Positions 36,898 through 63,829 of a stretch of DNA of 64,000 bases are shown here, one piece after another. The stretch covers positions 4,709,045 to 4,773,044 of the forward strand of contig JASKMD010000010.1 in the NCBI GenBank assembly GCA_030144725.1. The letters are read 5' to 3'. The position numbers were made by a program, and so were the translations under genes. This DNA comes from Haematococcus lacustris (lineage: Eukaryota; Chlorophyta; Chlorophyceae; Chlamydomonadales; Haematococcaceae). Numbering within the stretch: the first letter of the stretch is position 1; every line of letters starts with the position of its first letter. Under the pieces are notes generated by a model that was not told the origin of the DNA, searched no databases, and worked only from the letters and a program-made list of their open reading frames with translations.

Positions 36898-39800
36898 TTA
36901 TGTGCATGCCGGCGGCGAGGGATTAGGAGCCACGTGCATGGCGGCGTATTTCACCAAGTCCTGCGCTACCACTCGGGTCAGGCGGCCGCGCCCATCTTCG
37001 CTGCTGGCGGTGCCGGGCAATATGCGTGGCGCGAGTTGCCGGTGCACCTCCGCCGCATGACGTGGAGCTCTGTCTGGCACTTCCAAGGTCGCGAGCACGC
37101 CGGTTTCGCGCATGAAGCGCGCCATATCGTCCTCAGCCTCGGGATACTGTTCCAAGGGGCGCGCCTGGAAAGGGGAGGATGGACATGAGCGTGATATGGT
37201 CTCACAAAAAGAGTGATGCGAGTGTACAGCCTGCAGGTACAGTACCCAATGCTGGTGCTGGTCGGTCGTTAAGGAGTGAGTAACATAGTGCTTGGGCAGG
37301 CAGGGGGGCAGGCAGGGTGCAGGCAGCGGGACAAGGGGGCAGGCAGCAGGGCAGGTAGGGGGGCAGGCAGGCGGGCAGGCAGACAGGCACTCACCCGCCA
37401 TAGCCTTTCAAACGTCCAGTTCATCACTTCCAGGAAGCAGTTGCACGACTCCGCAATGTTGAAGCCCATTGAGACAGTGAAATGGAAGGCGTATCCAGGC
37501 ATGGTCCAAATCCCCATGCCGGGCAACTGGATTGTGCGCTTCACGCCTAGCTCCCTCAGCTTCTGCACACACCACGCAAACAGGAGGCACACCATGAGGG
37601 GCTGTATGAGGGGAGCCAGCCTAAGTCCCGCCCACCACGCCCTTGATCACGCTTGTCCTCCCTCACAACCAACTGGCATAAGCACTCTGCAGGCAACCAA
37701 ACTTCCTCAGACCCTTACTTACTACAACCCACGCGAACCTGCTTAGACCCTTACTCACTCTCACCCACATGAACCTGCTCAGACCCTTACTCACTCTCAA
37801 CTGGCCACTGCCAGCTTGATGACCTTCCCAGCCACAACCAGCCTGCTGAGTCGAGCGGAAGCACAGGCCCACAGCCTTGGCAGCACCCAGCATGCCAAGC
37901 ATTGGAAGCATCAGCCGCTGCTGCAGAGCCAGCCTGCCACTAATGCTCATAGTGCTCAAGACATTGGACAGCTGCTGCTGCTGCATAGAGGCAGCCTCCA
38001 GTCCCCTGCTTTGACATCCTGCTGGCTAACCCCATCCAGCCACTGCCAGCCTAGCAGCGCCTGCCGCCTCCAGCCCCACCATGACGCACCTCCAGAGGCA
38101 TGACCTGCTCCGGTGGGTACTCCTCCCGGTCAGTGAGGAAGGGGCTGATGCTCTTGGTGTACAGCTCCCCCCGCCCGCCCTCTGTGATGTGCTCTGCATA
38201 CTCTTTGAACTCCTGGACTGACTCCTGGGGCACCCACCACCAGATCTGCAAACAGCAGCGGCAGGAGGAGGGGCAGGTATCGGCAGGTGCGCAGTGACTG
38301 ATGTGGCGACAGCAGCAACAGACTGAGCAATGGCAGCATTAGCAGCAGGCAAAGCTGGCAGTGTGTGAGCAGCAGCAGCCAAGCATCTGCAGACAGGAGC
38401 GGCAGGAGTGACAGGTGTCAGCGTGTTAGGAGTGACGAAGATGGCGGCAGCGCAGGGTTCGCAGCAGGGGGGTGCAGCAGCAGGGGTGGCGCTGGTATGC
38501 CACTGCGCAGCAGGAGTGGCAGGTCAGCGGGACATGTCGGCAAGAAGGCTGCAGGCCAGAACGTTGCATGCTCTTTGACTGAGCGTGCCATACTGAGCAG
38601 CAACAGGACAACGGGAAATGTCAGAATGAGCTGCATGAGTCCAGAGCAGAAGCAACAGACTGAGCATCAGCAGCAAGGCTGCCCAGGGCCACAGCAGCAG
38701 CAGGCTAGGCTAGCAGTGTGTGGGCAGCAGCAGCAGCAGTCAAAGCTACAATTGTTGCAGGCAGCAGCAGCAGCAGCTGGAGGAAGGCAAGTGTGGTCCT
38801 GAGGCCAGCTCCATACCCAACTCAAACCAAACTGTCAGCAAGCATAGACATTTGGCTGTGTTATGGGGAAGTCATCAGTCTTCTTTGTCTAGTGGCTATG
38901 GCCCTGTGAATGGTGGTATTTTTATAATGGTTTCAATGTGACATGTCGCTCTATAGCTAGTTGTCCAGCGGATTATGTAACGCAAGATCTGTGGTCCTCA
39001 ACAGGCTGCCTGTGGCACACAGCCAGGGCACAACCTGTCACAGGCTGTGTAAGACATGTGTGAGACCTGCTGTGTGACATGTGTGAGGGGATGCAGTCAG
39101 GCTGGTGGGGAGTGTCACAACAAGACATGACAGATACCAACATGCTGTGTGAGGGGGTAGGGGAGTGAGGCTGGTGGGTGGTGTAGGGGGGTCGTGGCAG
39201 CCCTCATCATCTTGCCCTGCCGCAGCTGACCTTTGGAGCCCCGAAGATGTTGACGTTGATGGACATAAGCAACAGGTCTTCTACGTGTATCTGCAACCAC
39301 CATAACATAACACAGGCTGTCCACACATCAATGTTACACAAGGCGGCTAGTTTGCATGCTGTGGGCATGCATGCTGCTGGCACGCATCAGGGCTGAGTAC
39401 AGGGGCTGTCATGTATTAGGCCCTGATGCAAAGGCCAGCAATGCCAGCAGGACTGCCAGCTGCCGCCCTCAGCCTTGTGCCCTCCACCCACGCCCTCCAC
39501 CCCAGGTCCTGCCCTGCTGCACCCGCCCTGCCGTGATAACCCCCTGCCCCGCACCACAGCCCTGCTGCCCTCCACCCTACCCTGCTGCCCTCCACCCTAC
39601 CCTGCTGCCCTCCACCCTACCCTGCTGCCCTCCACCCTACCCTGCTGCCCTCCACCCTACCCTGCTGCCCTCCACCCTACCCTACTGCCCTCAACCCTGC
39701 CCTGCTGCCCTCCACCCTACCCTGCTGCCCTCCACCCTACCCTGCTGCCCTCCACCCTACCCTGCTGCCCTCCACCCTACCCTGCTGCCCTCCACCCTAC

Positions 39801-42800
39801 CCTGCTGCCCTCCACCCTACCCTACTGCCCTCCACCCTACCCTGCTGCCCTCCACCCTACCCTGCTGCCCTCCACCCTACCCTACTGCCCTCCACCCTAC
39901 CCTGCTGCCCTCCACCCTACCCTACTGCCCTCAACCCTACCCTGCTGCCCTCCACCCTACCCTACTGCCCTCAACCCTACCCTGCTGCCCTCCACCCTAC
40001 CCTGCTGCCCTCCACCCTACCCTACTGCCCTCCACCCTACCCTGCTGCCCTCCACCCTACCCTACTGCCCTCAACCCTACCCTGCTGCCCTCCACCCTAC
40101 CCTACTGCCCTCAACCCTACCCTGCTGCCCTCCACCCTACCCTGCTGCCCTCCACCCTACCCTGCTGCCCTCCACCCTACCCTGCTGCCCTCCACCCTAC
40201 CCTACTGCCCTCCACCCTACCCTACTGCCCTCAACCCTACCCTGCTGCCCTCAACCCTACCCTGCTGCCCTCCACCCTACCCTGCTGCCCTCCACCCTAC
40301 CCTACTGCCCTCCACCCTACCCTGCTGCCCTCCACCCTACCCTGCTGCCCTCCACCCTACCCTACTGCCCTCAACCCTGCCCTGCTGCCCTCCACCCTAC
40401 CCTGCTGCCCTCCACCCTACCCTGCTGCCCTCCACCCTACCCTGCTGCCCTCAACCCTACCCTGCTGCCCTCCACCCTACCCTACTGCCCTCAACCCTAC
40501 CCTGCTGCCCTCCACCCTACCCTGCTGCCCTCCACCCTACCCTGCTGCCCTCCACCCTACCCTGCTGCCCTCCACCCTACCCTGCTGCCCTCCACCCTAC
40601 CCTACTGCCCTCCACCCTACCCTGCTGCCCTCCACCCTACCCTGCTGCCCTCCACCCTACCCTACTGCCCTCAACCCTGCCCTGCTGCCCTCCACCCTAC
40701 CCTGCTGCCCTCCACCCTACCCTGCTGCCCTCCACCCTACCCTACTGCCCTCAACCCTACCCTGCTGCCCTCCACCCTACCCTGCTGCCCTCCACCCTAC
40801 CCTACTGCCCTCCACCCTACCCTGCTGCCCTCCACCCTACCCTACTGCCCTCAACCCTACCCTGCTGCCCTCCACCCTACCCTGCTGCCCTCCACCCTAC
40901 CCTACTGCCCTCAACCCTACCCTGCTGCCCTCCACCCTACCCTGCTGCCCTCCACCCTACCCTGCTGCCCTCCACCCTACCCTGCTGCCCTCCACCCTAC
41001 CCTACTGCCCTCCACCCTACCCTACTGCCCTCAACCCTACCCTGCTGCCCTCCACCCTACCCTGCTGCCCTCCACCCTACCCTACTGCCCTCAACCCTAC
41101 CCTGCTGCCCTCCACCCTACCCTGCTGCCCTCCACCCTACCCTGCTGCCCTCCACCCTACCCTGCTGCCCTCCACCCTACCCTACTGCCCTCCACCCTAC
41201 CCTGCTGCCCTCAACCCTACCCTGCTGCCCTCAACCTTACCCTGCTGCCCTCCACCCTACCCTGCTGCCCTCCACCCTAGCTGAGCCCAGCTACGAGTCC
41301 AGGCAGCCCTGAGCCCTGCCCTGCTCACACTGGGCATGCATACTGGGCACACTGGGCGCCACTTGCAGCATCTGTGCAGGGAGTAGGGGCAGCAGGCGGC
41401 CACCTCCACCGCACCTGAGTGTTGGTGTAGCCACCGCTGCAGATGAGCCCCACAAGAAAGATGCCCAGCGGGAGGGCAAGCTTGCCACACTTTTCAGCGT
41501 GAGGGATGGGTACCACGGGGACTGCTGATGCGGCACGGGCAGGGAAGCCGCCGGCAGCAGCAGCAGCAGCCAAGGCTGCTTTGTCTGACTTGATGCTGGA
41601 GGGCGCGCTGGCGCAGGGGGCACCCGTGGGGGTAACAGCAGGGGGGCCGGCAGCACTGCTGGGCTCAGGGGTGGGGGTGGGGGTGCGTGAAGGGGTTGCC
41701 ACGGGTGCTGCTGATGATGCACGGTGGGCTGTACCTTCTGACGCCACAGGAAGACTGACTTGGTGTGCCTGCATCAGCTGAGGCTGGGCTGCTGCTGCTT
41801 GGCTGTCAGCTGTGCAGCCCACAGGCAGGTTCCCTGGGGGAGGGGCTGGGTGCCCTGTGCCTGCCTGGTTGCTCAGAAGCTGGTCAGAAGGTGTCATGTA
41901 CGTGTCCGGCTCCACCTTGAACTGTAGCCCCAAGCAGGCGGGTGCGTCATGTGGGGGAGAGAGGGTGTCAGAGCAGTCCATAGGAGCGGGCTCAGACACC
42001 CCCTCCCCCTGCAGCCCTTCCATACCACACTGCTGAAGGCCCTCCTTGCTCTCACACACAGCATGGCTGCTGCTGTCAGGCTCCACCTTCACCTCCGCAG
42101 CTGGGGGTCGGCCGCTGGGCGGCGGCTGCTGCTTGATGTGTGCAGGGGGGCTGGAGGCTGTGCCTAGATCCAGAGGGGAGCAGGGGCTCGCGGTGCCTGC
42201 CTGCCGGCAGCTGGAGGAGGGGGAGCCACTGCTCATGCTCTGCTGCTGTTGTGAAGGGGAGGGTGTGTTGCCTGACTTGGCTGCGGCCTGGCTGCGCTGC
42301 TCCTTCAGTTTGCGCAGCCACGCGCCCAGCAGGTCGTCGGCCCAGGGGAAGGCAAGCGCTGCCTGAGTGGTGCAGCAGACCAGGAGGTCCAGGCTAGGGA
42401 GCAGCACAGCTTATGGGAGCATTGGGGAGGAGCAGAGACATAGTGTACCAGTTGCACCACCAGTGGGAGGGTAGCAAGGGCACGCCCTGAGGCGCCTCTC
42501 CTCCCTTAAGGCACACCCTACGGCGAGGGCGGTGTCTTTCTTTCTTTCTTTCCAGTTGTACCAGTGTGCCTTCCAAAGGTCTAACTCAGCCCACTAATAC
42601 ATTTAGAGGAGCAGGGTGTAGAAGTGAGGAGTTTAGAGAAGGAGGAGAAAAATCGGGGCTATTCTGGAGGAAGCGACATTCTGGGGGGGTCCAACTCAGC
42701 CCACTGATACATATAGAAGAGTAAAGGATCGCCCGACCCTCACTAGTTGCCTGACCCTGCCCTTGGGCACACCAGGCAGCTGCTCTGCGGCAAGCGGGCT

Positions 42801-45003: not shown

Positions 45004-47030
45004 GTCTGAAGACTTGCTAGCCGTACGTTCCTAATGTTCGCTCCGCCTGTCGCATGGTTCAGGGGTCACACACCCCTAACCAGCAGAGCAACGTAGCCGC
45101 AGCTCCTTGGCAGGCCTGTGCCCTGCACAACCCGGTCGCGCGAGGGGGTAGCTCGTGCAGTTAGGCAGAGATTATCAAAGGCACCGAGACACCTGGATTG
45201 TTTTTTACACGACCTTGTGTTGGGCACAGATCATTCCCATACGACGGAGACTTATGGCTCAGCCCCATGTGGTCTTAGCAGCGTGCAACGACAACTCGGG
45301 GTGCGAGTGGGAAGGGGTACAAAAATCGGCTTGATACAGTGTCAGAACGGCTGCAAACAGGCAAGAGTCAGCAGCAGCCATGGTCCAGAGTTCCCTGTTT
45401 GTTTGCCGGTTTGCGACACCAGCACCAGCACCAGCGACACCAGCAGCGATGGGGGGAAAGCTGAGGTGCATGGGATGCTGGCTGAGCACATTTCCAACGC
45501 TGACGCTCAGGACCTGAGGGTGGGGTGTCCAAGAGGGAGTGGAGGGAGCAGATGTTAGTCCATCCTGACCTGGTGGGAAAGGTGTGTGGGGCTGCTGTGC
45601 TGACAGACTGGGCTAACGAGCAGACTGGACTAACGAGTGTTGGGGTCACACACAGGCCTGCCATACAACTGTGTGACAGTAGATATATCTGAATGGATAT
45701 ATCTACATCCCTGTATCCCTATCCTCATGAGGAGCCCCTACACTTCTCCATAGGAGTGAGAGACCGGTGTGTGTCCCTAACCTAGGAGTCGGGACCTAAC
45801 CTAGGTGTCCCTAACCTATTCGCTAGAGCCCTACCCTATGCATGACTCTTGTGCACACACATCCCCTTTGTAAGGGGCAATCTGATTGTTTGTTTGATTT
45901 GGCTCATGGCATGATGCACATGTCACTATCGCTGCCGCTGGTGCCGCCGCTGCCACTTCCGCAGCAGGCCCTTGTCGAGCACTTCCATCCATTCCTGGCC
46001 CACTCTGCCTGGGTTAGGCATGGTGGGGCCGCCCAGCCAGCTGCTGAGCTCGCGTGGGCGGCCTGGCCAGGCTGCAATGCGGCGGATGATCATCCCAGTA
46101 AGCAGCTGAGAATGTCTGCATGGTTAGGTTCCCCGTGGCAGCCTGTGGCGGGCCCCCACCCTAGGCACAGACAACACAGCTACAGGCAATTCGTGCAGCA
46201 GCTGGATTAGAGCAGAAGCTGGATTACAGCAGCAACAACAATCAGTTGTTGCGAAAATGCTCTCAAGGTGGCATTGAGAGTACTTGGTCAGGTGCAAAGC
46301 AAGACAGGTCAGATCAGGTCAGGTCAGATCAGGCTAGGCCAAGCAATCCAGGTCAGCAATAGCAGATAGCAAAGCAAGGGCGTAACAGGGCAAACGGTCG
46401 GACTTTGCTGGTAAAGCTTTGCACACATGAACACCCACCATGCACCAACCACCATCTAGACCAGCGACTGCATAGCTGGGACACCGAGCACTACTGAGCA
46501 ATCCGGGCATTGGAGGTAGCTTTTGGGGGCGCAGAGGGTTGGTGATGGGAAAGGTGCATGTTCGCTAAGTGCGTCGGTTTTTGGATTCACAATTCGACTT
46601 TGAACAGCAAAAGTCAAAGAAAGAGCAGACAAGAAAGAATGTAGCTACCAGAAGTCCTGGTAGCGTGAGGTTGGCAGCAGCGGGTCGCACGGAGCCATGT
46701 GCGAAACAGATGCGTTAAAACAGATGTGCCCGACCCCGGCGTTGGTACCTGTTGGTACCTCGTCATATCTGCGACCATTTCTCCCCCCGCCTCAATGTCA
46801 TACGTGAGGGTGCACGACGTCTGCGGTTGTGCTTGCATCCCCCTTGCTATTCATTGTCCCACCTCACTCTGGCATCTACCTGCAGCCTCTGCACCAGCGA
46901 AGCCCGGCCCCAGCTTCAAGTACATCAGCGCAGCAGGTGCAGAACCCACAGCTCTCTTTCCGCGTCTACCAACTGATATGGTGTGCGCCCAGCATCTAGC
47001 CAGCCCCCTTGTCCCTCACTAGGGCCTCCA
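45004..47030. other. Intergenic, no gene recognised
   Basis: Between the JmjC gene start and the Fanzor gene end. Contains a short palindrome AGATATATCTGAATGGATATATCT at 45681-45704 and GGTCA repeats at 46309-46330. No coding pattern. Confidence 0.5.
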
Positions 47031-47104
47031 TTTGAGCCGGATCAGAAGTACCTACTAGCATACACTATCAGCCACTAGTAGCCACTAACTAGATCCGGCT
47101 CAAA
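47031..47104. repeat. Inverted repeat with perfect 13-bp arms downstream of Fanzor
   Basis: TTTGAGCCGGATC (47031-47043) is perfectly complementary to GATCCGGCTCAAA (47092-47104) around a 48-base centre that itself has CACTAGTAG and CTACTAG motifs. It begins 160 bases past the Fanzor stop on the gene's strand. It may be a small MITE, or part of the element's end or guide-RNA region. Confidence 0.6.
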
Positions 47105-47263
47105 CAGTGTTATTGGGCTGTGTGGAGTAAACCCAGTGCACATGGCACATGAGCCCGCCTACCACCTACACTATTGCCTGACCCGAGGGCTATGATGTAG
47201 AGTTGGCATGACAAAACATGCACTAATTGTAAGCTGATGACAGCTCAACAAGGGGGGCACACA

Positions 47264-50200
47264 CTACTGTGCCTCAGCAGGCTGCTGCTGCTGCTCCTGG
47301 GCCTTGGGGGGCATGTCTCGCAGCCGCTTGTAGCCCAGGCCAGGGTACTCCTTGCCCTTGGCTGGCAGAGCTGGCAGGTCTGGCCACCAGCACAGCTCCA
47401 GCAGCCGCCACCTGCTCTCCCCAATGCGCTGCATGTTGAGCGCTGCATTGCAGTCCCTGTCCAGCCACCTGCCTGGCTGTGGTGTTGGCTTGGCTTTGGC
47501 AGCCTTGCCCTTGCCCTTTGTGGGCTCAGCTGCCGGCTTGCTGCGCTTGGCTGGCTGGGGTGTGCTGGGCCCTGGCTCTGAGGCTGCTGGCTGTGTGGCT
47601 TCCTGGCTGCTGCGTGGGGCCTGTGGGGGCTTGCGGGGGGCTACTACAGGGCACCACACCAGGCCCCGCACAGGCTGGCCACGCTCCTGGCTCCAGGCTG
47701 GGCGCACTAGGCGGTGGTGCACCTGCCCTGCTGGGGGCTTCCAGCCTGCAGGTCTTGTGGCACTGAGTGTGTTCAGCTCCACCTCACAGGGCTGCTTGCC
47801 GTTCACTGCTGAGCTGACCCGGCTGGTGCGGTGCTCATCGACAAGCACAACCCTGCCCCCATCCTGGTCTTTGCCCCTGGGCCTGCACACCACCTTGCGG
47901 CAGGCCCGCAACACCGCATCAGCACCCCACCCACCCCCAGTGCCAATGGTAGCAGCGCCAAAGAACACCACCAGCTGCTTGGCACGATTGTGGCGCTTCA
48001 TGGACAACTCAGCCATCTCCTTCTCCAACTGCAGCCATGCACACAAGACACACACAGGGACACACACATGGTGGCACCAGGTTAGGCATGGCACAGTGAA
48101 GTACTCTTTCGTTTCGTGCCCAACCCACCACCTCTCCGTCCCTTACCCTCCCTCCCTCCCACCTACCCACCCACCCACCCACCCTCACCTTGTTGAAGAA
48201 CTGCTCCAGCGCCCGGTCCTGGGCTCCGTACAGCCTCAGCCGCTGCCGTGCCCACTTGGGGTCCAGGTACACCTCCCACACCGCATCCCAGGTGGCGAGG
48301 GTGACGGTGATGTGCTTCAGGTTGGCCACCAGGGAGGTGCCGACTGAGCTTGCTGCTGCCAGGTGCTGGAGGTGAGGCTTGATCGGTGCTAGCCACCGCT
48401 CAGTGTCACGGCGGGCATTGTTCAGGCCGCTGGCATGCTTCACCTCGCCCTTGGTCAGCTTCCACCGGCGCAGCTGGTCTGCCTTGAGCTGGCCTGTTGC
48501 TGGATCCCACACCCCAGAGGCTGCGCTGACTGCCTGGGTGACGCCGGGGTCGATGCCCACCCCAACCTGTGTGTCTGTGTCAAACACAAACTCACGCATC
48601 TCAGCTATGCCCCTGCCTATGTGGGGGAGCCCCACTGCATGGGCCGCTGCTGCTGCTGCACTTGGGCGGCTGCTGGTGCTGCTGCTGCTGGCAGCTGGAG
48701 GTGGGGCTGGAGGAGGGGGAAGGGGGCGCGTGTAGTGCACGCACACGCTGACACCATCTGTGTCCACCAACCTCTCGAAATGAAACTCCTTGTTGCGAAG
48801 CTTGTTGGTGTTGAACCCAGTGGTCCTGGCCCAGTGATCGCTCAGTGCTGGCTCTGAGGTGAATGCTGCCTGGGTTTCCTTGGTCAGGCCCAGCTGCTTG
48901 CACACCCCATGCAGAACCCTGCTGTCCACCTTGATGAAGTGCACCCCCACCCTGGCCATGGGGGTGAGGGTGAAGGGGGGTGGGCAGGTCAGGGTCCGGG
49001 GACCAACCCCACGCCTCTTGCCGCGCTTTGGCTGCCCTGGTGCGGGTGGGGTGTGGGGCTGCTGCCACCGCTCTAGCCACCGGCACACATGCACTGCATG
49101 GCGCATGCGGCAGGGCAGGGGCAGGGTGTCCTGCAGGGAGCCTTGCTTCTTCATGCCCAGTAGGCGGCGGTGCGTGTTGGCCTCCTCTATCAGGTCCGCC
49201 ACATGGCCCTTGTCCAGGGTGGCGGCCTTCAGCTCCGAGCTGTGGGCGTTGATGCCATACCCACACGCCATCCATGAACACACCACCTGCGCCTCCTCCC
49301 CGCTCCAGCCTAGCTTGGCCCTGGCTGCCTTGGCGTACAGCTTGACTATGCGCTCTGCAGGTCAGGTCAGGTCAGGTCAGGTCAGGTCCAGGTCCAGGTC
49401 CAAGTCCAGGGTCTAGTCACCACCATGACTTGCCTGGATTGGAGTAATGCTGCTGCATGGCCACCGCCAGCTGCATGGAGTGTGCGTCGATGGTGTTGTG
49501 GAAACCCGCCAGGTTGATGCTGCCCAGCTCCTGCAGCTTGGCCAGCAGCGCCTGGTTGCTGGGCTCCTCAAAGGCTGGCATGAGCATGGGGTGGCGGTTG
49601 CGCCCAAGGCGCCGCTGCAACTGGTTGTAGCATGTCTTGAAGTTTGGGTTGGCGAAGAACTTGCAGAAGTCTTTCAGCTGCCTGAGCATCAGGGGGTCCT
49701 CGCAGTCAAGGGGCAAGGGAGGGCCAGTGGGTGCTGCGAGTGCAAGGGCTTTGGGGGGGTTGCACGACTGGCTCAGGTTCTGACTCTGACTCCGTGTCAG
49801 ACTGTGGCTCTGGCTCTGAGCCACAGTCTGACTCGGAGTCAGAGTCATTGTCACACTCCATGCTGGCAGGCTGGGCAGGCTGGGCAGGGGCCCGTTGGGG
49901 GAGTGGGGGTAGGGGGGGAGCATCAGGGGGTTGGGGAGGCTGCACAGCTGGAGGCTGAGGGGCGTTGGGGGAGCCTGGGGTAGGGTAGCCCACCAGGCAG
50001 GTGAGAAAGATACGCAGGACAAACAAAGAGGCGATGACGCGGAGCTGGGAGTGGATCTCAGCCCGTAGCTGGAGGTGCTCCCTCAGCTTGCGCCTGGTCT
50101 TCTTACAGCCGCGCAGCACTGCGCCCTCGGGGACCTTGATGACCTGCAGCCAAGCGAGGTTGCCATTTTGACAGGCCAAGACACAAGGCGGGGTCGACAC

Positions 50201-50431
50201 AAACAGTGCGGATACACATAAGGCGGGGCCGTCACCTGACGTCGACGCGTGGTCCAGCCATCTCGACGATCCTGTCGTTGCTTGCCTTGGGCGGAACGAG
50301 ACACTGCGATGGAACCAACAGGAGCGACGGGTTATCTCACAGCGCGTAACTCACGTCTAGGGCTCACGTCACGGCTGGGGACACGAACCTTTACGTTTCT
50401 TGTCGCTACCCTTCCGCTTCTTCTTAGCCAT
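47264..50431 (-). CDS. Fanzor nuclease (eukaryotic TnpB-like), one-base frameshift
   Basis: Exons, 5' to 3': 50431-50389, 50303-50236, 50143-49434, 49354-48189, 48028-47264; about 916 residues if read in one frame. Fanzors are RNA-guided DNA endonucleases of eukaryotic mobile elements. The N-terminus MAKKKRKGSDKKRK is a classic nuclear localisation signal. Then come an acidic Ser-Asp-Glu tract, a helical region and a split RuvC domain: RuvC-I VGVGIDPGV (Asp near residue 548), the Fanzor-type alternative RuvC-II Glu in VVLVDEHRTSRV (near 728), and RuvC-III RDCNAALNM (Asp near 854). Exon 3 ends in a GC donor (CCAG/gcaagt), phases otherwise closing exactly. A run of seven C (about 49753-49759) puts the second half of exon 3 out of frame; this is a sequencing indel or early decay. 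The zinc-ribbon between RuvC-II and -III is altered: the usual first Cys pair reads SSAV and CPxC reads CPVV. The guide RNA, expected at the 3' end, was not identified. Confidence 0.87.
49361..49412 (+). repeat. GGTCA pentamer array in the GC-AG intron of Fanzor
   Basis: A short run of GGTCA and GGTCCA units fills most of the 79-base intron 49355-49433. It is the complement class of the CTGAC satellite in PYD3. Confidence 0.8.
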
Positions 50432-50845
50432 CACCCGATGCGCAGTGCGACGGGCGGTGGCCTTTTCTAGCAATTAGGGTTTTCCGTGAAAAATACACGG
50501 ATGTGTGAAAATACACAAGTGCAAGGGAAAGGGAACAGGGCCAAGCCAAGCCAGTCAACTGCAAGGCAGCGTGGACACTGTGACTGTCAACTGCAAGGCA
50601 GCGCACTGAACTTGGACAGCCAGATGGCTGGACCTGGATGTCTCCTAGAGCGCGACCGGACTGGTTGAAGGTTAGTGTTAAACCGATTGTTAAAGTTTAC
50701 CGTTTGGTCGCGATACGAGTCCCTTTTTGCTGTCGTTCTGGTCGCGACACGGCAATGCACCCAGCGACACTATGCCGGCAGAAGTAGCCAGTGAGAAGCA
50801 GTCCTAGGGTAGCAAAACGGGTATGTTAAAGATTGGTTAAAGTAG
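50432..50845. other. Upstream flank of Fanzor, no gene
   Basis: AT-richer than its neighbours, with GTTAAA and TGGTCGCGA motifs repeated (TTTGGTCGCGATACG at 50703, CTGGTCGCGACACGG at 50731). Possible promoter or element end; not assignable. Confidence 0.4.
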
Positions 50846-50847
50846 TA

Positions 50848-51044
50848 GATAGTGGAAGCGCCGGTAGTTTTAGGTGCCCTAAAAACGCGAGGCCGAGGCG
50901 TTGCATTGTAACAGCTCGAGACCGAAGCCAGCAGCCGCGGAGCGTAGCGACGCGGCTGCTGGCTGAGGTCGAGAGCTGTTACGCGACAGCGCCGAGGCCG
51001 AGTGTTTTTGAGGTGCCTAAAACGCTCCGGGCGCTTCCACTATC
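50848..51044. mobile_element. 197-bp hairpin MITE with TA target duplication
   Basis: Nearly the whole element is an imperfect inverted repeat: arms of about 95 bp start GATAGTGGAAGCGCC and end GGCGCTTCCACTATC, meeting at a centre in GCCGCGGAGCG. TA dinucleotides flank both sides (50846-50847, 51045-51046). No coding capacity. Confidence 0.8.
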
Positions 51045-51621
51045 TAATTTAGTTCAGTTTTGATGCTCTATGGCTACATTCCGTGCGGCGAAGCCGCACT
51101 TTTGGAGCAACACTATGTTTTGAAGCGAAGGGCGGGGCGGGCATGCACCATACGCAACCTGCAACGCACGCGGGATGGTAGCCAGTTTGAACCAGCTATG
51201 CACTTTTCTAAAATGGCCCGCGTCCCGCGTTTCTAAGAGCGTAATAGGGAACTAAGTCTCTTAAACAGCAGGCTATTAACTATTATAACGCATGAAAACG
51301 GAACTAAGATGTGGTTAAACCCAAAACATCAGGATGTTAAACTAACCAGTCGCGCTCTAATGTCTCCCCTTCTCACCCGACAATTGGTTGGACTGGGAAT
51401 CCACGCAGCACTGAACCTGCAGCTGTGAACCATCTAGCCAGCCTTGTCATTATGCCTTGCTACTCACCATCACAACAGCAACATGACGAGAGGATCCAAT
51501 GTTTTGTAAACAATCGTCCCATGATGTGTGACACAGGATTTGCCTGGGATGCCGGCTGGGTTAGTGCCGTATTGGTGGACTTAGTATAAGAAAGATGTCA
51601 TGTGACAAGGCCATGTGCAAC
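51045..51621. other. Gene-free stretch
   Basis: No conserved coding pattern between the hairpin MITE and the hAT element. Confidence 0.5.
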
Positions 51622-62160: not shown

Positions 62161-62524
62161 ATGCTACAGTACTGTAGGTGTCTACAGTACTGTCGGGGTA
62201 CCTCGCGAGTACACGAACAGTACTGTAGACACCTACAGTACTGTAGACCCCTACAGTACTGTAGGTGTCTACAGTACTGTCGGGGTACCTCGAGAGACCA
62301 CTTACAGTACTGTAGGTACCTACAGTACTGTAGACATCTACAGTACTGTAGACATCTACAGTACTGTAGGTACCTCGAGGTACCTCGAGAGACCATTTAC
62401 AGTACTGTAGGTACCTACAGTACTGTAGACATCTACAGTACTGTAGACATCTACAGTACTGTAGACATCTACAGTACCTCGAGGTACCTCGAGGTACCTC
62501 GAGAGACCACTTACAGTACTGTAG
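62161..62524. repeat. Array of palindromic CTACAGTACTGTAG units
   Basis: About 20 copies of CTACAGTACTGTAG, a perfect palindrome, spaced by short arms such as GTGT, ACAT, ACCC or GGTACCTCGAG. Flanking GGTACC and CTCGAG are themselves palindromic. Higher-order units start at TACCTCGAGAGACCA (62286, 62386, 62497) and give a second periodicity of about 100-110 bp. Confidence 0.95.
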
Positions 62525-62610
62525 CCTTTAAGCACTTAGAAAAATTCTGAACATCTCACTTGCATTCAAGGCCGTCCAACACTTAGTCGCAGCATCGTGT
62601 AGCCGGTATT

Positions 62611-63440: not shown

Positions 63441-63484
63441 CACTACTCTCCCACACTGCACTTCCTACTGAGGTGAGGACAAAC

Positions 63485-63829
63485 ACTCCTACAATTTAGT
63501 CCCTGCGTTTGTCCCTGCGTTCTACCGACCTTGTCGGATTGGGCTGAAAATTTGATAGATGGCAGTTTTCGGAAAATAAAACATATTTTTCAAGAAAAAT
63601 ATTTGGAAAAATCCAAAAGCTGTTGCGCTGTGTCCCGCAACCTATCCCTGCACTCATCCCTGCACTCTAGCCACAGGGCCACAGCGCAGCCGCCTTTGAT
63701 TTTTTTAAAATATTTTATCTGAAAAATATGTTTTATATTCTGCAAACTACCATCTATCAAAATTTCAGCCCGATCGGACAAGGTTGGTCAAAACGCAGGG
63801 ACGGACGCAGGGATTAATTTGTAGGAGTG
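63485..63829. mobile_element. 345-bp MITE with long terminal inverted repeats
   Basis: The left end (ACTCCTACAATTTAGTCCCTG) and the inverse complement of the right end (ACTCCTACAAATTAATCCCTG) match, and similarity continues inward for about 150 bases, through GATAGATGG and a run of AT-rich sequence. A side effect is that both strands encode nearly the same short peptide (MSDWAENLIDGS and MSDRAEILIDGS). No transposase. Flanks do not show a clear target duplication. Confidence 0.8.

Follow-up and report, generated by a model that had tools for sequence, protein, structure and literature searches.

Layout and surroundings of the gene

The window analysed here, a stretch of 64,000 nucleotides of Haematococcus lacustris DNA, carries on its minus strand, from 50431 to 47264, an intron-containing gene which, as read here, runs from start codon to stop codon through five exons (Table 1). 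Fanzors are eukaryotic RNA-guided nucleases, and the original prediction had placed at this position an NLS-bearing, intron-containing Fanzor gene with a GIDPG RuvC-I motif, a rearranged RuvC-II glutamate, a RuvC-III motif reading RDCNAALNM, and all catalytic acids kept. These features were borne out, since the five exons begin with a basic N-terminus of the KKKRK type, all three motifs are present, and the three acids are retained both in the window gene and in most of its relatives. The joints of exons 1 to 3 are also the joints in the gene models P0009 and P0021. The donor ahead of exon 4 is ambiguous between a site after 49506, which the LAERIVKLY of P0006 and P0015 fits, and the nearer site after 49434, to which P0028 points by continuing into HYSNPGKAQLGW.

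The same prediction took the locus to be intact, and here it probably did not hold, having missed that exon 3 is out of frame. The first frame of this exon terminates at a stop codon (49708-49706) and the conserved stretch LPLDCEDPLML resumes one frame over; at the position of the break P0006, P0007, P0008, P0011 and P0015 carry RRCSARLAALAPAAPTGPP, whereas the window copy does not read through. The simplest reading of the sequence is a small out-of-frame loss, and an unannotated intron, for which 146 hypothetical GT-AG introns could serve, is a possible alternative. Due to this break the window copy is probably damaged, unless such an intron bridges it, and probably makes no full-length protein.

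Table 1. Features of the Fanzor1-lineage gene and its flanks, in window coordinates
Feature	Position	Strand	Basis
Leader at the 5' side, common to gene models P0041, P0047, P0055 and P0098	50432-50491	-	flank comparison
Fanzor1-lineage gene, start to stop codon	47264-50431	-	translation and homologues
Exon 1, MAKKKRKGSDKKRK, basic NLS-like start	50389-50431	-	joint also in P0009 and P0021
Exon 2, begins VSRSAQGKQRQDRRDGWTTRRRQ	50236-50303	-	joint also in P0009 and P0021
Exon 3, begins VIKVPEGAVLRG; alternative 3' end 49506; frame break inside	49434-50143	-	translation
Frame-break zone in exon 3	49706-49771	-	translation; relatives
Exon 4, TDGV motif and RuvC-I	48189-49354	-	translation
TDGVSVCVHYTRP in exon 4, motif in common with Fanzor1	48723-48761	-	alignment
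RuvC-I GIDPG, exon 4	48543-48557	-	Asp in 101/106 relatives
Exon 5, RuvC-II and RuvC-III	47264-48028	-	translation
RuvC-II DEHRTS (VDEHRTS), rearranged Glu, exon 5	47822-47839	-	Glu in 117/117 relatives
SRVSSAVNG, expected place of the first zinc-ribbon CxxC, reads S..V	47798-47824	-	alignment
WCPVV, where the second CxxC would lie, a single Cys remaining	47642-47656	-	alignment
RuvC-III RDCNAALNM, exon 5	47432-47458	-	Asp in 109/112 relatives
Start of 3' flank common to gene model P0057	47229-47263	-	E=0.002; 3.8e-6 including the gene end
Near-perfect 84-base hairpin, arms TTTGAGCCGGATC/GATCCGGCTCAAA	47027-47110	-	folding vs shuffles (z -6.99)
Truncated C-terminal piece, family B	45944-46099	-	best matches 77-80% identity, 116 matching rows

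Regarding the ends of a putative element, the four gene models sharing the leader agree with the window up to FHGKP (50491) and diverge before it, P0002 and P0055 possibly sharing a few more bases. From this comparison we infer a 5' end at about 50491-50510, and splice joints in the leader-sharing gene models could mimic such an end. On the opposite side, the flank shared with P0057 extends to 47229; homology beyond that point through P0108 (E 0.023 to 0.043) was discounted because a value of 0.031 was obtained elsewhere in the window, at an unrelated place, and the 3' end of the element was not found by flank comparison with these two models. Within 1000 bases starting at about 46300, no inverted repeat of the 5' end reaches 8 bases, and neither Helitron ends, nor a target-site pattern, nor a vehicle of the element were found. 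The hairpin listed in Table 1 lies 150 bases past the stop codon. The segment 46980-47280 folds with a z of -4.77, a signal due to this hairpin, as 47111-47260 alone (z -0.67) folds no better than its shuffles; the RNA predicted at 47030-47300 is thus left without specific support. Rfam and tRNA scans of the whole window returned nothing.

Several other repeats are found in the window. A non-autonomous hAT-like element of 714 bases (50646-51359), with ends TAGAGCGCGAC and flanked on both sides by the 8 bases ATGTCTCC, contains a fold-back repeat at about 50846-51046. On the minus strand, 52391-53407 matches the hAT transposase C-terminal dimerisation domain (PF05699, E=6.1e-14), and this hAT region, interrupted by a GGGCA-type repeat array, shows more weak hAT-like matches to about 53900. 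A tandem array comprising 86 copies of a 20-base unit lies at 39560-41279, and palindromic repeat units CTACAGTACTGTAG together with a 346-base self-complementary stretch are located at 62164-62525 and 63484-63829.

Haematococcus relatives and their relationship to Fanzor1

When 8000 candidates were scored, 697 proteins matched the window protein at E<=0.001, and the best 120 of these matches were all from H. lacustris, with a best identity of 93%. Judged by these sequences, the window locus is a single copy of a gene that is very numerous in H. lacustris and whose products are here called family A. Among the family A relatives (reference P0009 included) the RuvC-I aspartate is kept in 101/106, the RuvC-II glutamate in 117/117 and the RuvC-III aspartate in 109/112. 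The conservation of the triad among such recent copies is nevertheless weak evidence of selection, since the mean identity of the family A core is 0.877 and the RuvC-I aspartate ranks above only 41% of its positions in conservation. Some gene models contain only core fragments or two units; P0030, P0081, P0089, P0105, P0127 and P0220 hold two Fanzor units each, at times from different families, and this suggests that insertions in the genome lie next to or within one another. Residues 80-290 of P0083 represent an additional divergent Fanzor-like type, with a RuvC-I reading MGLDPGAIQ.

A second family (family B), searched with a region of P0005 as query, gave 157 proteins; the best 120 are H. 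lacustris proteins throughout, including two taken from different annotation series of this species. Many family B proteins carry DPGKTN, VDEFRTSRVSS and YDRDVSAALN. Cores of 61 family A and 31 family B proteins align over RuvC I-III with E=1.5e-25 and 29% identity (a comparison at E 5.5e-102 was set aside because one family B row bears an appended family A unit), and the two families group in the tree with support 1.000. The survival of the catalytic triad between families at 29% identity, having outlasted a deep divergence, is a stronger argument for selection than its conservation among recent copies. A truncated piece of family B lies about 1.2 kb downstream of the window gene, a feature which the original prediction had missed.

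For comparison with canonical Fanzor1, the DNA pattern DE[YF].TSK.C..C led to one viral contig, encoding a 669-residue protein with the Fanzor1 layout; this seed gave 853 proteins, the best 120 all bearing the precomputed label PF26935.1, and because it was built from one seed the sample is narrow. An HMM made from the 112 proteins of at least 560 residues among the 120 listed matched 47 of the 239 listed family A and B proteins at E<1e-3, and none of them after shuffling (0/239, none at E<=10) or reversal (0/239, best E=4.9). Among six-frame pieces of the window, exon 4 (0.062) and exon 5 (0.59) taken singly are not significant, since an unrelated piece scores 0.12. The original prediction had proposed an HMM search with the joined exons, and on the Fanzor1 side this was positive, as exons 4 and 5 together reach E=0.0032 against a best value of 81 in 200 shuffles; on the Pfam side it was not, since the window protein scores 17 and 15.3 bits with TNB (PF07282), below the cut-off of 26.3. 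Profile comparisons with Fanzor1 in hhalign, for which no separate negative control was included, gave modest probabilities: 29% for family A (5.9e-4, over only 45 columns around RuvC-III), 74% for family B (2.9e-5) and 75% for both combined (2.6e-5).

The order of motifs points in the same direction. Both families are colinear with Fanzor1 through TDG, DPG, E..T and RD, and the C-terminal RP.E is also in common. An alignment of 24 sequences from family A, family B and canonical Fanzor1 has 15 invariant columns, including the DG of TDG, DPG, one glycine, the RuvC-II glutamate and threonine (E..T), the RuvC-III RD and an asparagine, even though the identity of the Haematococcus families to the canonical rows is 15-18%. 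E-HRTSRV-SSAV aligns with the canonical E-YNTSKK-CC.C, so that the glutamate stands six residues before the zinc-ribbon position, in accordance with what a passage of PMC10711439 gives as a rule for Fanzors. In a tree of 8 family A, 7 family B, 14 canonical Fanzor1 and 6 TnpB proteins, the two Haematococcus families sit on a long branch and, with TnpB as outgroup, are sister to the sampled Fanzor1 rather than nested inside it. At the level of sequence, these comparisons show family A to belong either in the Fanzor1 lineage or beside it as a sister, and the window gene is related to Fanzor1 through its close identity to family A.

Domain and structure libraries gave less. PF26935 is precomputed on 2 of the 120 listed family A proteins (P0047 and P0059, the former also holding a family B piece), and among 23 aligned relatives 12 match PF07282 at E<=0.1, the strongest at 3.2e-6; P0083 exceeds the cut-off at 27 bits. 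Pfam and NCBIfam searches of the window exons and of family A returned weak TNB matches and otherwise unrelated noise. Searches of the PDB with a window exon, the profiles of both families and a family B segment retrieved no Fanzor chain; the library does contain such chains, as generic motif strings matched TnpB, Cas12 and two Fanzor1 chains. With six plasmid TnpBs, profile comparisons of either family alone gave E values between 0.0059 and 0.0023, and the two combined gave 1.2e-4; the matches of either family are confined to RuvC-III or RuvC-I. The conserved RuvC-II glutamate sits in DEHRTS and not, as in canonical TnpB, about 50 residues before the ribbon. No relative was detected in viral contigs searched with the family A profile.

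Replacement of the zinc ribbon

A C4 zinc finger is called strictly conserved in Fanzor and TnpB in a passage of PMC3627910 (Bao and Jurka 2013), and according to one of PMC10711439 many Fanzors contain it. In both Haematococcus families this ribbon is missing, which the original prediction had overlooked. The first CxxC was present in 118/118 canonical sites, all of them reading TS..C..C, and in 0/105 sites of family A and 0/82 of family B; proteins without the site amounted to 19/120, 41/119 and 2/120 in family A, family B and the canonical sample, respectively, and this survey supersedes a narrower one (67/67 canonical). In its place family A has S..V or S..M (103/105), and the first position is serine in 81/82 family B sites. 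Likewise, the second CxxC ahead of RD is found in 115/118 canonical sites, 0/105 of family A and 1/82 of family B, a single cysteine being kept at this second place in 103/106 family A proteins. The replacing residues in family A (Ser in 116/116, Val in 115/116) are as fixed as the catalytic glutamate. Since TSRVSSA is common to both families, the ribbon was most likely lost before they split. As family A fails one feature of the 2013 motif, we place it next to canonical Fanzor1, as a variant rather than a canonical member of that group. The Fanzor identity originally proposed is sustained as a relationship to Fanzor1, by HMM and alignment, and not as regards the C4 zinc ribbon, the Pfam TNB domain or a matching Fanzor chain in the PDB.

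Comparison with known systems and interpretation

As Fanzor1 is portrayed in passages of PMC3627910, PMC10432273 (Saito 2023), PMC10711439 (Yoon 2023) and PMC11423790 (Xu 2024), the Haematococcus proteins resemble it in TDG, DPG, the RuvC-III RD, the C-terminal RP.E, the rearranged glutamate, the introns and the high copy number; they differ in the loss of the ribbon and, in family A, in a basic Pro/Lys-rich insert before RuvC-III. The third catalytic place can be asparagine in an active Fanzor1, according to a passage of PMC11423790. Bacterial TnpBs, represented by the six plasmid proteins, are likewise RuvC D-E-D nucleases of mobile elements with an RD.NAA.NI motif, but have D-hydrophobic-G for DPG and keep the zinc ribbon. 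Among green algae, the Fanzor1 elements CRe-1, 2 and 3 of Chlamydomonas reinhardtii are similar by description in having several exons and many copies, some truncated. A passage of PMC3627910 describes the Chlamydomonas elements as non-autonomous Helitron2 with frequent 5' truncation; the truncated family B piece would fit this habit, although no Helitron ends were found at the window locus. In Auxenochlorella, a passage of PMC12633428 names a Fanzor-encoding repeat as the most abundant repeat; by description it resembles the Haematococcus gene in its abundance and its green-algal host. Abundance alone is thus not new. In at least one full-text record naming both Fanzor and Haematococcus, the passages treat the two words separately.

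Taking all this together, we consider it likely that the window locus is a copy of a high-copy, probably mobile nuclear gene of Haematococcus whose protein belongs in the Fanzor1 lineage or its sister. More tentatively, with somewhat less than even confidence, we hypothesize that at least two deep Haematococcus families form a lineage in or beside Fanzor1 that acts as an RNA-guided nuclease despite lacking a zinc ribbon and is present in hundreds of copies. By analogy with Fanzor1 and TnpB, intact copies would make a nuclear protein, which may bind a guide RNA derived from the 3' end or flank of the element, and its RuvC site would cut matching DNA with this guide, the TNB region being held without the ribbon. 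Cutting of sites that lack the element would favour persistence of the element, as proposed for TnpB.

The main rival, which we regard as unlikely though worth weighing, is that loss of the ribbon marks a Fanzor-related protein which no longer cuts DNA, with copies spread by other machinery, such as a Helitron, or with only nucleic acid binding kept. The absence of the ribbon from two families, the out-of-frame window copy, the gene models with a partial core or two units, and the Helitron2 vehicle and truncations in Chlamydomonas are what such a passenger would lead one to expect; retention of D-E-D within family A and across the divergence from family B, and the fixed residues in place of the first cysteine pair, speak against it. 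Far less probable is an intact canonical Fanzor with an active window copy, an intron bridging the break and a guide RNA at 47030-47300: the hypothetical introns and the fold of 46980-47280 would allow it, but the ribbon is absent, relatives read straight through the break position with extra sequence, and the fold is explained by the hairpin. Least credible of all is that the protein is a transposase or host protein of unrelated origin, its RuvC-like motifs having arisen by chance, a reading which the failure to match the PDB or pass a Pfam cut-off with the window protein and the weak TnpB comparisons might suggest, and against which stand the Fanzor1 HMM matches with negative controls and the motifs in common order down to RP.E.

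If a nuclease lineage without the ribbon indeed exists in Haematococcus, the TNB domain could do without its zinc module, and these families would reveal what replaces the module. A lineage so numerous, with the triad kept and the ribbon replaced, would separate the role of the ribbon from the needs of the nuclease. In addition, the many copies and truncated pieces in one genome would provide a natural series on nuclease-aided persistence of an element.
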